From NCBI GenBank assembly GCA_003279535.1, contig QCHO01000003.1, positions 1-64,000 on the forward strand: 64,000 nt of DNA, given 5' to 3'. The stretch is from Prochlorococcus sp. AG-402-C22 (GTDB taxonomy: Bacteria; Cyanobacteriota; Cyanobacteriia; PCC-6307; Cyanobiaceae). The translations under genes were made by a program, and so were the position numbers. The notes under the pieces are model-generated. The model saw only the letters and a program-made list of their open reading frames with translations, was not told where the DNA came from and ran no database searches. This document shows positions 15,399-58,328 of the stretch, one piece after another; the stretch's first letter is position 1; the number at the start of each line of letters is the position of its first letter.

Positions 15399-15767
15399 AT
15401 GCCCTCTCAGAGGAAAAGAATTGGTTTTTTGCCGAGTGAGGAAGTTCACGAAATTATTGATAAATTATGTAAGGCTAATGAATTTAGTCAGTCAAAAGTT
15501 ACTGGTTTATTGGTTGAAGAGGCATTAAGATCCAGAGGAGTATTAAGCGATATATTTCCCGACAAATCAAGCTTTATGTTGAATTTTGTAAATAATTCTT
15601 TTGAACAAGAATCAGTCTCTAAAAATGACAAATCCCTAGTTAATAGTGATGATTATATGATGAATAAAAACACATTGTCCAATGATATCAAATTGATGCA
15701 TGAATTTATTGAATTTAAGTATTTCAAGAAAGTTATGAACCAAAATAACGACATTTTAAAAAAATAG
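15399..15767 (+). CDS. Ribbon-helix-helix (CopG/Arc-like) DNA-binding protein
   Basis: 122 residues. The N-terminal ~45 fit an RHH fold: a basic strand 'SQRKRIGFLPSEEV', helix 'HEIIDKLCKANE' and helix 'SQSKVTGLLVEEALRSRGVL'. The remainder (~50-122) is hydrophilic and unlike any domain I know; it may mediate assembly. RHH proteins bind DNA as dimers through the strand. A palindrome over the promoter and a copy after the stop codon suggest autoregulation. No toxin gene follows directly, so a toxin-antitoxin role is not supported. Confidence 0.7.
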   Translation: MPSQRKRIGFLPSEEVHEIIDKLCKANEFSQSKVTGLLVEEALRSRGVLSDIFPDKSSFMLNFVNNSFEQESVSKNDKSLVNSDDYMMNKNTLSNDIKLMHEFIEFKYFKKVMNQNNDILKK

Positions 15768-26462: not shown

Positions 26463-26711
26463 ATGATTAATATACTATCATTCTTGCTATCTTCCGTGCT
26501 TTGGGTGCAGGTCCCACAGTGGTCTGATGATTGGTCCAAATGTTCTGTTGATGTTCCTGACGCGTCATGCCATTGGTATATAACTTCACCTGATAATACT
26601 TTTGGTGAAGGGTTTGATTGGGCCAACGCTCCTTGGTTTGATGCCAACGGTTTAAGTGATGTCCCAAGTATTGACAAACAAACCGCTATCCAAAAGTTAC
26701 AAAATAAGTAG
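26463..26711 (+). CDS. Small Trp-rich exported protein, unknown
   Basis: 82 residues. A short hydrophobic N-terminus ('MINILSFLLSSVLWVQ') looks like a signal peptide or anchor. The body has six tryptophans in all and two cysteines ('WSKCSVDVP', 'DASCHWYIT') that could form a disulfide, then 'NTFGEGFDWANAPWFDANGL'. The sequence is ordered and unusually GC-rich for the region, and it has its own terminator-like hairpin. The minus-strand ORFs in the track here are shadows. The family is not recognised. Confidence 0.65.
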   Translation: MINILSFLLSSVLWVQVPQWSDDWSKCSVDVPDASCHWYITSPDNTFGEGFDWANAPWFDANGLSDVPSIDKQTAIQKLQNK

Positions 26712-27146: not shown

Positions 27147-28160
27147 CTAATTTCTGTATAAATTTTTTAGCAGTTGATAGGCTTCATTTATTTTTCGCAT
27201 TTGATCTGTTGATCCTCCAGCATCTGGATGACTCTCTAAAGCTTTTGATTTATAAGCATCTCTAATTTTTCGTAATGTATGCGCAGACCCTGCTGCTGTT
27301 GATAAATTCAAGATTTTAAGTGCTCCATGTACCGTCATTGTTGAATCCAATGCTTCTAATGAATTTGATCTGTTATTTCGCTTAAATCTACATACAAACC
27401 TCCTCACTAGTGTTGGTATTCTATTGATTAAATCTGATGTAGCAAATGGGTCTTCTAAAACACCAATCATTAATAAAACCATTTCAAGCGTGGGGGTTTT
27501 CTTTACCCAATATGGGCATAATTCAGACATTAATTTGTTAGCTGCGCTCCACGTAAAGGGTAGATTTTCTGTTCCATCAAGATTTGGCCATATATCTCTT
27601 CCAAACCAATCCATTGAGGCTTCTATTACATGATCATTTGGAATAGTTCCATATAAGTTTTTCCAATGGCTAATTAATGCTATTCGACATTTTATTAATT
27701 CATTTTCTTTAATTGTATTAATTTGAATATCATTAATATTCTCTTTTAACTTTTCACTATTAATACTTCTTCTTAGATTCTTTACTTTTTTTTCAACAAA
27801 ATTGGGAAGGCTTATATCTAATTTAGCTTTTTCTATGCATTCATCATTATTTGAATCAATTGTTTTTAGAGCTGTCTCTTTAGTTTCTTTATTAGTATCT
27901 GGTTTAATTAATACCAATGCAGTATTTTCATCAATATTATAATTTTCATTATTATTCATGTTCTCACTAAAGTTTATTTCTTGTTGTTGGTTCTTAGGTA
28001 GAAAATCATCTTCTTTAAGAAGTTCTGTTATCAACTTTTCAATTACAGGACCTCTTGATCTAAATCCCCACTCTTTTCGTAATTGATCAAACCTAGAGAT
28101 TAGTTCCTCAGGTAAATCAATTGAAATCCTTTTTGTATTTGAATTTTCAGGAATATTCAA
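27147..28160 (-). CDS. Fusion of an RHH DNA-binding domain and a C-terminal J domain
   Basis: 337 residues from a TTG start; no in-frame ATG is available before residue ~68. The N-terminus is a ribbon-helix-helix domain: strand 'TKRISIDLPEELISRFDQL' and helix 'RSRGPVIEKLITELLK'. Residues ~55-150 are low-complexity, rich in Asn, Glu and Lys. A Trp-rich middle block ('HWKNLYGTIPNDHVIEASMD', ~170-265) is unassigned. The C-terminus (~275-337) is a J domain with the essential HPD (311-313) in 'ALESHPDAGGSTDQMRKINE'. The J domain should stimulate DnaK, and the RHH domain should bind DNA as a dimer. I infer a DNA-bound recruiter of DnaK; the target is unknown. Start-site repeats suggest autoregulation. 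Confidence 0.8.
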   Translation of the reverse strand: MNIPENSNTKRISIDLPEELISRFDQLRKEWGFRSRGPVIEKLITELLKEDDFLPKNQQQEINFSENMNNNENYNIDENTALVLIKPDTNKETKETALKTIDSNNDECIEKAKLDISLPNFVEKKVKNLRRSINSEKLKENINDIQINTIKENELIKCRIALISHWKNLYGTIPNDHVIEASMDWFGRDIWPNLDGTENLPFTWSAANKLMSELCPYWVKKTPTLEMVLLMIGVLEDPFATSDLINRIPTLVRRFVCRFKRNNRSNSLEALDSTMTVHGALKILNLSTAAGSAHTLRKIRDAYKSKALESHPDAGGSTDQMRKINEAYQLLKNLYRN

Positions 28161-28305: not shown

Positions 28306-28485
28306 ATGTTTAATTGTTATTTCAAGTCATCAAAAGAAAAAAAGAGTTTTTATCAACATAAGAAATTAGAAATGCTCAATTATATTAAAGATTCACTTGA
28401 GCGTAAAATTGCCTCTGTAACGGCTTCTATAGAAGTTTTAGAAAACCAAATAACCAGAGATAAAGAAGTTGAAGTTACTAATTAG
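28306..28485 (+). CDS. Small helical hypothetical protein
   Basis: 59 residues, not in the ORF track, ATG start. A basic N-terminal part ('NCYFKSSKEKKSFYQHKKLE') leads into a regular coiled-coil-like helix ('MLNYIKDSLERKIASVTASI', then 'EVLENQITRDKE'). The family is not recognised. It is divergent from the RHH-J gene, sharing a ~145 bp upstream region, and ends 3 bp before the convergent nucleotidyltransferase gene. Confidence 0.5.
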   Translation: MFNCYFKSSKEKKSFYQHKKLEMLNYIKDSLERKIASVTASIEVLENQITRDKEVEVTN

Positions 28486-55420: not shown

Positions 55421-56347
55421 TTAGGAATCAGAAAGTGATAATTCTTGTAATCTTGTATACAATGCAATTTCTTCATCATTGATATCAGCAGGAATTACTA
55501 CTAAGATTTCAACATATTGATCACCTACATTATCCTCGAATGTTAGACCTCTACCCTTTAAACGTAACATTCTCCCGGTGGATGATTTTGGAGGCACTTG
55601 AAGGGTTACATTCCCATCAAGGGTAGGAACCTCTACTGCACAACCAAGAAGTGCATCATGAGGAAACAACTCTAATTTATAAATAACTCTTAAACCATCA
55701 ATTCTTAGTCCACTTTCCGTTTGAACCTTTAACTGTAAATAATGATCTTTTCCGCCCCTTGCAATATTTTCAAGTCTTAATCGCCAACCATCTCCAGCAA
55801 AAGGAGGTGTATCAACTTCAACCATAGTTTGATCTTCAAGTTCGATTAATATTGAAGCTCCATTTAAGGCCTCATCAGGAGTTAATTCAATAATTGTTTC
55901 TATATCTTTATGGAGTTTAACTGGAGGGGGTTCTTCGGGAGATGTTGTAGGGTAATCGTAATTATTAAATTCATCATTTTCTAGATTCGTTGATTCATCA
56001 TCAAGTGGTTCATCAGTATATTCGTATTTATTATTAACGTTATATTCATATCCAAATAATGAATCAAGATAGTCTTGAAAATCAGGAAAACCTGTTTTGA
56101 AATTATTATTTTCGTAATCTTCCTGAATATTTACATCTGAATTTTTATTTCTTTTATTGGGATCACGAAGGTATTCATATGCTTCATTAATCAATTTAAA
56201 TCTTTCTTCTGCATTTAAATCATTTTTATTTAAATCAGGATGCCATTTTCTTGCTTCTCTTCGAAATGCTTTTTTTAGTTCTTTATCGTCGAAATCATTG
56301 GATAAACCCAAAATCGACAAATAATCTTTTTTAGAGGAAATAGTCAT
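55421..56347 (-). CDS. dnaJ: DnaJ-family co-chaperone (no zinc finger)
   Basis: 308 residues from the ATG giving 'MTISSKKDYLSILGLSNDFD'; the track start adds 11 unlikely residues that come from the dnaK overlap. The J domain (~6-75) has HPD in 'EARKWHPDLNKNDLNAEERF'. There is no Gly/Phe-rich or four-knuckle zinc region; an acidic, Asn-rich linker leads to a DnaJ C-terminal substrate domain ('LELFPHDALLGCAVEVPTLD', 'LRLKGRGLTF'). It is CbpA-like. The start overlaps dnaK by 17 bp, so both are coupled. Confidence 0.9.
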   Translation of the reverse strand: MTISSKKDYLSILGLSNDFDDKELKKAFRREARKWHPDLNKNDLNAEERFKLINEAYEYLRDPNKRNKNSDVNIQEDYENNNFKTGFPDFQDYLDSLFGYEYNVNNKYEYTDEPLDDESTNLENDEFNNYDYPTTSPEEPPPVKLHKDIETIIELTPDEALNGASILIELEDQTMVEVDTPPFAGDGWRLRLENIARGGKDHYLQLKVQTESGLRIDGLRVIYKLELFPHDALLGCAVEVPTLDGNVTLQVPPKSSTGRMLRLKGRGLTFEDNVGDQYVEILVVIPADINDEEIALYTRLQELSLSDS

Positions 56348-58328
56348 TGTCCCATGGATCATCATCCCTAGAATCACCATACCTCGAATTTCGATAATTT
56401 CTATTCATTTGATTATCCCAAGGATCATCATCCCAATAATCGTCTGAAAACAGTTCATCCTTCAATGATCCAAATGTATTTTTAATACCCTGTAATGGAT
56501 TATTATCAGTTTTCCTTTCTGATGCAAATTTTCTGTTTAATCCAAATAATGCTTCTTGGAGAGCACTTACTGAAATTTCTAATTCTTGAGGATCATCATC
56601 ATTTATGTATTCTTCAACATCTTCAATAGCTAATTCGACAGCACGTTGTTGTCTTTCAGCTCCATAAGGTCCAAATTCTAGAGAAGCATCTCTAAGTCTT
56701 CTCTCAGCTTGCGCAATAAGAGTTAAAGCACTATTTTTTCTATCAATGACAGATCTTATCATTCTGTCTTCATTTGCTTTTGTTTTAGCTTCTTCAATTA
56801 TCGAATTAATTTCTTGCTCATTTAAATTCGAGCCTCCTGAAATTGTAACTGTTTGCTTTCTTCCTGTTGTTCTATCCGTTGCACTAACTTCTAAAAGACC
56901 ATTAGCATCAATATCGAATGCAACCTGTACTTGTGGAATTCCTCTAGGTGCTGGAGGTATTCCTGATAGCCTAAATTTGCCAAGGGATTTATTTTCAGAA
57001 GCCAATGGTCTTTCACCTTGTCTTACTTGAACAACCACTGAAGATTGATTAGCTTCTGATGTACTAAAAACATCAGATTGCCTTACTGGTATAGGTGTAT
57101 TACGAGGAATAAGTATCTTCATAAGACCACCAATGGTTTCTAAACCTAAGGATAAGGGCGTAACATCATTTAGAAGTAAATCTTGTAAATCACCACTTAT
57201 TATTCCGGATTGTATAGCAGCACCAATTGCAACAACTTCATCTGGATTAACTGATTGACAGGGGTCATTAGGAACAAGAGTCTTGACTAATTGTTGAACC
57301 ATTGGGATTCTTGTGCTACCACCTACCAGAACTACCTCATCTATATCTTCTGCGTTCCATCCAGAGTCATCTAGGGCTATTTGCACAGGCTCTAATAATC
57401 TGTCTAATAGATCCTGAGATAAGGATTCAAATATTTTTCTATTTAAAGTCTCCTCAATATGTAATGGCCCCTCTTTACTTGTTGTGATAAAAGGTAATGA
57501 TATTTTTGTTTTTTGTAATCCTGATAATTCACATTTAGCTTTTTCAGCGGCTTCAGTTAATCTCTGCAAAGCTTGTCTATCCCTTCTAAGATCAATATCA
57601 TGTTTTGCAAGAAATCTTTCAGCAAGCCAATCTACTATTTTTGAGTCAAAATTATTTCCTCCTAATTGGGTATCTCCACAGGTGGCTTTTACATCAAATA
57701 CACCATTTGAAATTTTTAATAATGAAACATCAAACGTTCCTCCGCCTAAATCAAATACCAAAACATTATTAGAAGAACTTTTTTCAAAGCCATAAGCAAG
57801 AGCAGCTGCAGTGGGTTCATTTAGGATTCTATCTACTTTGATACCCGCCAATATTGCTGAATCCTTTGTGGCTTGCCTTTGAGATTCATTAAAATAGGCG
57901 GGAACTGTAATAACAGCAGAGTCAACAGTATCTCCTAAATATGTTTCAGCATCATTAATTAATTTTCTAATTAATGAGCTGACTAGCTCTTCAGGAGCAT
58001 ACTCTCTTTGTGTATTTGGACTAAGAACCCTTACACTTCCAGTATTATTTGCTTTGACATTATAAGGAACAGAAATACTTGTATCATCTAATTCGTCCCA
58101 GTCGCTACCAATGAATCTTTTTAAGTTATAAAAGGTATTCTTTGGATTTAAAACAAGTTGTCTTCTTGCTTGTTCGCCTATTAAAATTTCTTTGTCTTTT
58201 GTAAAACCAATTATTGAAGGTGTAGTTCTAGACCCTTCAGAATTTGCAATTACAATTGGACGACCAGCTTCTATAACTCCAACAACAGAGTTAGTAGTAC
58301 CTAAATCAATTCCAACTATTTGCCCCAT
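56331..58328 (-). CDS. dnaK: Hsp70 chaperone DnaK with acidic DDDPWDN tail
   Basis: 665 residues. ATPase motifs 'GIDLGTTNSVVGVIEAGRP', 'NVLVFDLGGGTFDVSLLKIS' and 'EVVLVGGSTRIPMVQQL', linker 'VTPLSLGLETIGG', then the substrate domain. The C-terminal ~60 residues are Asp-rich and repeat DDDPWDN twice. The dnaK-dnaJ overlap resembles the dnaK3-dnaJ pair of Synechocystis rather than dnaK2, and such DnaK forms have been tied to membranes and ribosomes. That subtype is inference. No CIRCE element is visible upstream. Confidence 0.93.
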   Translation of the reverse strand: MGQIVGIDLGTTNSVVGVIEAGRPIVIANSEGSRTTPSIIGFTKDKEILIGEQARRQLVLNPKNTFYNLKRFIGSDWDELDDTSISVPYNVKANNTGSVRVLSPNTQREYAPEELVSSLIRKLINDAETYLGDTVDSAVITVPAYFNESQRQATKDSAILAGIKVDRILNEPTAAALAYGFEKSSSNNVLVFDLGGGTFDVSLLKISNGVFDVKATCGDTQLGGNNFDSKIVDWLAERFLAKHDIDLRRDRQALQRLTEAAEKAKCELSGLQKTKISLPFITTSKEGPLHIEETLNRKIFESLSQDLLDRLLEPVQIALDDSGWNAEDIDEVVLVGGSTRIPMVQQLVKTLVPNDPCQSVNPDEVVAIGAAIQSGIISGDLQDLLLNDVTPLSLGLETIGGLMKILIPRNTPIPVRQSDVFSTSEANQSSVVVQVRQGERPLASENKSLGKFRLSGIPPAPRGIPQVQVAFDIDANGLLEVSATDRTTGRKQTVTISGGSNLNEQEINSIIEEAKTKANEDRMIRSVIDRKNSALTLIAQAERRLRDASLEFGPYGAERQQRAVELAIEDVEEYINDDDPQELEISVSALQEALFGLNRKFASERKTDNNPLQGIKNTFGSLKDELFSDDYWDDDPWDNQMNRNYRNSRYGDSRDDDPWDNDYFL

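Follow-up and report, generated by a model that had tools for sequence, protein, structure and literature searches.

The locus lies in the 64,000-nucleotide stretch of Prochlorococcus sp. AG-402-C22 DNA analyzed here (hereafter the window). On its minus strand, an open reading frame whose exact ends are a TTG at 28160 and a stop at 27147 (27147..28160, stop included) encodes a protein of 337 amino acids, supported as a gene by its homologues and by purifying selection. The protein is a fusion consisting of an N-terminal ribbon-helix-helix (RHH) domain, a variable linker, an LPxF motif, a Trp-rich domain and a C-terminal J domain, and in orthologues the J domain was always accompanied by the RHH and middle domains. 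Mean pN/pS values were 0.22 for the RHH domain, 0.64 for the linker, 0.20 for the LPxF region, 0.16 for the middle domain and 0.16 for the J domain; ordered regions under purifying selection around a relaxed linker are the pattern expected of a tether. The N-terminal RHH and the C-terminal J domain with its HPD motif, both assigned by an initial annotation made from the sequence alone, scored above the curated cut-offs of Pfam, and the Trp-containing block noted between them proved to carry five tryptophans (W166, W185, W191, W204 and W218) that are invariant in 164 of 164 homologues.

Translation of the fusion appears to start at a conserved non-ATG codon (28158-28160). No in-frame ATG exists upstream of the RHH domain in the open reading frame, all 57 close relatives from Prochlorococcus start with TTG, and GTG or TTG opens at least 28 of 36 diverse homologues, mostly GTG outside Prochlorococcus, at start positions that we picked from the alignment. 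Such a start codon possibly holds expression low. Upstream of the gene, an inverted repeat (TTTCAA-TTGAAT) overlaps a likely promoter but did not qualify as an operator, as its arms show no co-variation in the upstream alignment; the perfect form of this pattern is absent from the window.

The RHH domain spans residues 9-50 (28011..28136, minus strand). It conforms to the strand-helix-helix pattern of ca. 45 residues of the superfamily, with a predicted strand at about residues 10-16 and helices A (18-31) and B (36-50), the helices being taken from a low-confidence model. Pfam RHH_1 matched residues 11-49 (E 6.4e-5, 23.2 bits versus a cut-off of 20.5), and the RHH profile aligned with the RHH domain of Pyrococcus horikoshii NikR over 39 gapless columns (hhalign probability 88%, E 3e-6), using a NikR sequence that agrees with the one in the PDB alignment. 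Of 36 diverse members, only 11 gave an RHH_1 match at E ≤ 0.01. Two monomer structure predictions, run on sequences sharing roughly 81-96% identity with the window protein, gave low mean pLDDT values of 44.7 and 47.1 and placed helices where the RHH fold has them. Residues R11, S13, R34, R36 and G37 are nearly invariant in homologues, which fits the strand and helix-turn of an RHH domain that binds DNA. The third strand position of RHH proteins often contacts DNA, yet here this position (residue 15) is mostly acidic, about 150 of 166 sequences having D or E, so that contact with DNA could be weak or altered. Judged from these residues, the RHH domain of the fusion likely, but not certainly, binds DNA. 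Some related genomes (L216:840-1022, L217:1088-1327) encode stand-alone RHH proteins of 60-80 amino acids that are close to the fused RHH domain and could form mixed dimers with it. Elsewhere in the window, a 122-amino acid protein (15399-15767, plus strand) has by eye an RHH-like N-terminus, gave no Pfam match, and matched the profile only doubtfully, with gaps.

The J domain occupies residues 273-337 (27150..27344, minus strand), so that the protein ends just past helix III. Pfam DnaJ matched residues 283-333 (E 4.5e-7, 30.3 bits versus a cut-off of 27.8) and was detected at E ≤ 0.01 in 36 of 36 diverse members; the domain also aligned by hhalign with the DnaJ encoded in the same window, and its best PDB match was Tim14/Pam18 (E 3.2e-4). 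The HPD motif (residues 311-313; 27222..27230, minus strand) is kept in 163 of 163 homologues together with R/K300, Y303 and K/R304, positions that we take to be those of the DnaK-contact residues HPD, R22, Y25 and K26 of Escherichia coli DnaJ. Positions equivalent to R27 and R36 of E. coli DnaJ are not kept. Retention of HPD, Y303, R/K300 and K/R304 argues against a degenerate pseudo-J domain and indicates that the domain is likely functional; a DnaK gene is located in the window at 56331-58328. No DnaJ_C or zinc-finger match to Pfam was found in the protein at E values up to 10. Since class C is defined by the absence of these two regions (PMC13254874), the fusion can be classified as a class C J-domain protein. 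In picocyanobacteria, another J protein of ca. 261 amino acids (L213:1572-2354 and similar) carries a C-terminal J domain after a coiled-coil-like region.

Between both domains, the variable linker (residues 51-110; 27831..28010, minus strand) is acidic in many members of the alignment and contains one conserved patch, ALVLI (81-85), in which V83 is conserved. It is followed by an I-x-LP-[GN]-F motif region (residues 111-122; 27795..27830, minus strand) with invariant I116, L118, P119 and F121. The Trp-rich domain (residues 146-272; 27345..27725, minus strand) is predicted to be all-helical, an assignment that comes from low-confidence models. This middle block of ca. 125 residues also contains an invariant EDP and, near its C-terminal end, a basic helix (IRRFVxRFRRR) that precedes the J domain. 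It has no Pfam family and gave no significant PDB match. When its profile was searched over 291 genomes of the class, the 43 matching family members scored E ≤ 6e-54, whereas the best value elsewhere was 0.018; this gap points to a lineage-specific domain, seen only inside the RHH-J fusion.

The closest relatives of the window are Prochlorococcus, and a search for the same fusion in other genomes, proposed in the initial annotation, was strongly positive, with matches in nearly all genomes of the picocyanobacterial family. These amounted to 120 of 130 near-complete genomes, including those of streamlined Prochlorococcus; this is a slight overestimate, as at least one of the 120 matches (G282) is weak (E 2.4e-4). 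Family genomes without the fusion belong mainly to one genus (g9), plus G121, G125 and G149. All 29 near-complete genomes of the genus Prochlorococcus gave a match, which in G037 spans the first 106 residues only and in G041, a complete genome, corresponds to stop-ridden debris (G041:C1:880125-880566) between intact syntenic neighbours, indicating that at least one strain can do without the gene. The extra J-domain protein of G041 was considered as compensation for this loss and discarded, as it is unrelated outside the J domain. Among 390 genomes of the class, full-length matches occurred in the picocyanobacterial family only; outside it, only fragments or separate J or RHH matches were found, mostly to the J domains of other J proteins. 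The fusion is a core gene of the family, single-copy, syntenic and under purifying selection. A viral or plasmid origin was rejected: no relative was found in IMG/VR, phage matches were confined to the J domain, and no plasmid match was obtained. J-domain proteins, most of them annotated as hypothetical, are found in phages of Klebsiella, Aeromonas and Morganella (MH791414, PP397179, PP565371 and others), and related phage J proteins act on sigma32, according to a 2026 review (PMC13254874).

In genomes that we call Synechococcus and Cyanobium-type, partly from their gene order, the locus reads ATP adenylyltransferase, sigma-70 family factor, DUF3370, RHH-J, convergent apcF and an RlmD-like methyltransferase. 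There DUF3370 always precedes the fusion gene in the same orientation; wherever the DUF3370 alignment was complete to its end, 15-52 bases separated the two alignments. In Prochlorococcus, DUF3370, the sigma factor and apcF were lost and RHH-J was retained between pheT and the adenylyltransferase; its neighbours in the window are pheT, the ATP adenylyltransferase gene and metH. This context suggests vertical inheritance and makes co-transcription possible. A small, conserved and divergent open reading frame of ca. 59 amino acids upstream of the fusion (28306..28485, plus strand) occurs family-wide near DUF3370 and has no Pfam match. Another one of 82 amino acids, possibly exported (26463-26711, plus strand; MINILSFLLSSVLWVQVPQWSDDWSKC...), is conserved beside the fusion in Prochlorococcus, also with no Pfam match.

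Each half of the protein resembles known systems. Like other class C (type III) J proteins, the fusion retains an intact HPD and lacks the G/F-rich, zinc-finger and C-terminal beta-sandwich domains, and it shares with Pam18/Tim14 a short J domain at the C-terminus; it differs in the addition of the RHH and the lineage-specific Trp-rich domains, and a membrane tether is not expected. Like CopG/NikR-type regulators, it has an N-terminal RHH domain, which aligns with NikR without gaps, but the nickel-binding domain is absent and a J domain stands in place of a ligand-binding domain. The NCBIfam NikR models matched the N-terminal region only, with 16.6-23.7 bits versus cut-offs of 83-119, which does not place the protein in that family. 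Control of transcription through DnaK, as would be expected of the fusion in its proposed role, is exerted in the HspR-DnaK system of Streptomyces, where HspR has a MerR-type fold, and in the sigma32-DnaJ-DnaK system of E. coli. In these systems, however, the factor that binds DNA and the J protein are distinct molecules, whereas the fusion joins both in one chain. Zuotin/ZRF1 (DNAJC2) also combines a J domain and a DNA-binding-type domain in one chain; it is eukaryotic, ribosome-associated and uses SANT/Myb domains, and the comparison implies no homology beyond the J domain.

Considering these traits, the reading that we favour, to which we give about an even chance, is that the fusion is a class C J-domain protein that would be tethered to DNA as an RHH dimer and direct DnaK to chromosomal sites. 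The RHH domains of two chains would pair and grip a short operator-like site, and the linker would give both C-terminal J domains the reach needed to stimulate the ATPase of a DnaK, which would then close on a substrate at the DNA site. The substrate would most likely be the fusion protein itself, the DNA-bound dimer being dissociated or reshaped, or a protein held by the Trp-rich domain, and the most likely output would be a regulatory switch whose occupancy of DNA is governed by DnaK. Points against this reading are the low-confidence structure predictions, the small share of diverse members in which RHH_1 was recognized, the mostly acidic residue 15, the upstream repeat that did not qualify as an operator, and the loss of the gene from one Prochlorococcus strain. 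The initial annotation had proposed, in general terms, a factor that combines a DNA-binding fold with a domain for recruiting DnaK. Its two-domain assignment holds, and the general idea fits all observations.

Both RHH and J domains are known singly, but there appears to be no earlier description of their combination, of the middle domain or of a near-universal presence in picocyanobacteria. No published report of an RHH-J fusion was found in the open literature that was searched, nor was such a fusion found in the passages searched of the 2026 review, which names CbpA as a DNA-binding J protein (PMC13254874). In the known bacterial links between DnaK and DNA-bound factors, separate J proteins must find the client. 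With the recruiting domain fused to a predicted DNA-binding domain, the action of the chaperone would instead be targeted to a chromosomal location. The fusion is a core gene in a group that has very small genomes and few regulators and comprises the most abundant photosynthetic organisms on Earth; being a core gene with a domain that has no known relatives, it makes the client and target sites directly testable.

Alternatively, the fusion could be a nucleoid-associated J protein, whose RHH domain would bind with little sequence preference and spread a DnaK co-chaperone over the chromosome in the manner of CbpA. There is precedent for this in CdbA of Myxococcus, an RHH nucleoid-associated protein genetically linked to DnaK-like chaperones (PMC10313047), and in CbpA of E. 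coli itself, a J protein that binds DNA (PMC13254874; PMC4063869), as the fusion is predicted to do; the basic helix ahead of the J domain could add non-specific binding. However, CbpA binds DNA through a different architecture, its J domain being N-terminal and its C-terminal domain of the DnaJ type, whereas in the fusion the J domain lies at 283-333 of 337 residues and the DNA-binding candidate is the RHH domain. This, and the acidic linker of many members, make the nucleoid-associated reading rather unlikely. To the same degree, we regard as unlikely a client-specific J protein in which DNA binding was lost, the RHH domain would serve for dimerization or protein binding only, and the Trp-rich domain would hold the client. 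The acidic third strand residue, the weak Pfam RHH scores in many members and the conservation of the Trp-rich domain, at least equal to that of the RHH domain (pN/pS 0.16 versus 0.22), would all agree with such a protein, but not the near invariance of R11, S13, R34, R36 and G37.

The fusion might be a proteostasis sensor, kept in the HrcA-less Prochlorococcus, in which the supply of free DnaK, acting on the J domain of an RHH repressor, would directly set how far this repressor occupies DNA; we consider it a doubtful proposal. That the fusion is a heat-shock repressor acting in place of HrcA, its J domain sensing free DnaK, is improbable. In its favour, DnaK-dependent repressors such as HspR of Streptomyces are an established principle, and HrcA was found in none of the 25 Prochlorococcus genomes searched, where the fusion is retained. 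On the other hand, HrcA was present in 105 of the 130 near-complete genomes of the family and the fusion gave a match in 120, so that both occur together in most of the family outside Prochlorococcus, and the fusion did not arise as a replacement of HrcA. Moreover, lineages devoid of the fusion differ from those devoid of HrcA, and heat-shock genes are not adjacent to the fusion; a replacement of HrcA was rejected, the two distributions not being complementary. HrcA was also present in 15 of 15 cyanobacteria searched outside the family.

Many RHH proteins are antitoxins, and one weak NCBIfam match to the BrnA antitoxin was observed (E 0.0099), but a toxin-antitoxin pair whose antitoxin acquired a J domain is extremely improbable, since no toxin gene is adjacent, the fusion is flanked throughout the family by conserved housekeeping genes in constant order, and its distribution is core, not patchy. 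A dark-induced 'copG' gene of strain MED4, given without locus tag (PMC5082946), is a candidate counterpart of the fusion.
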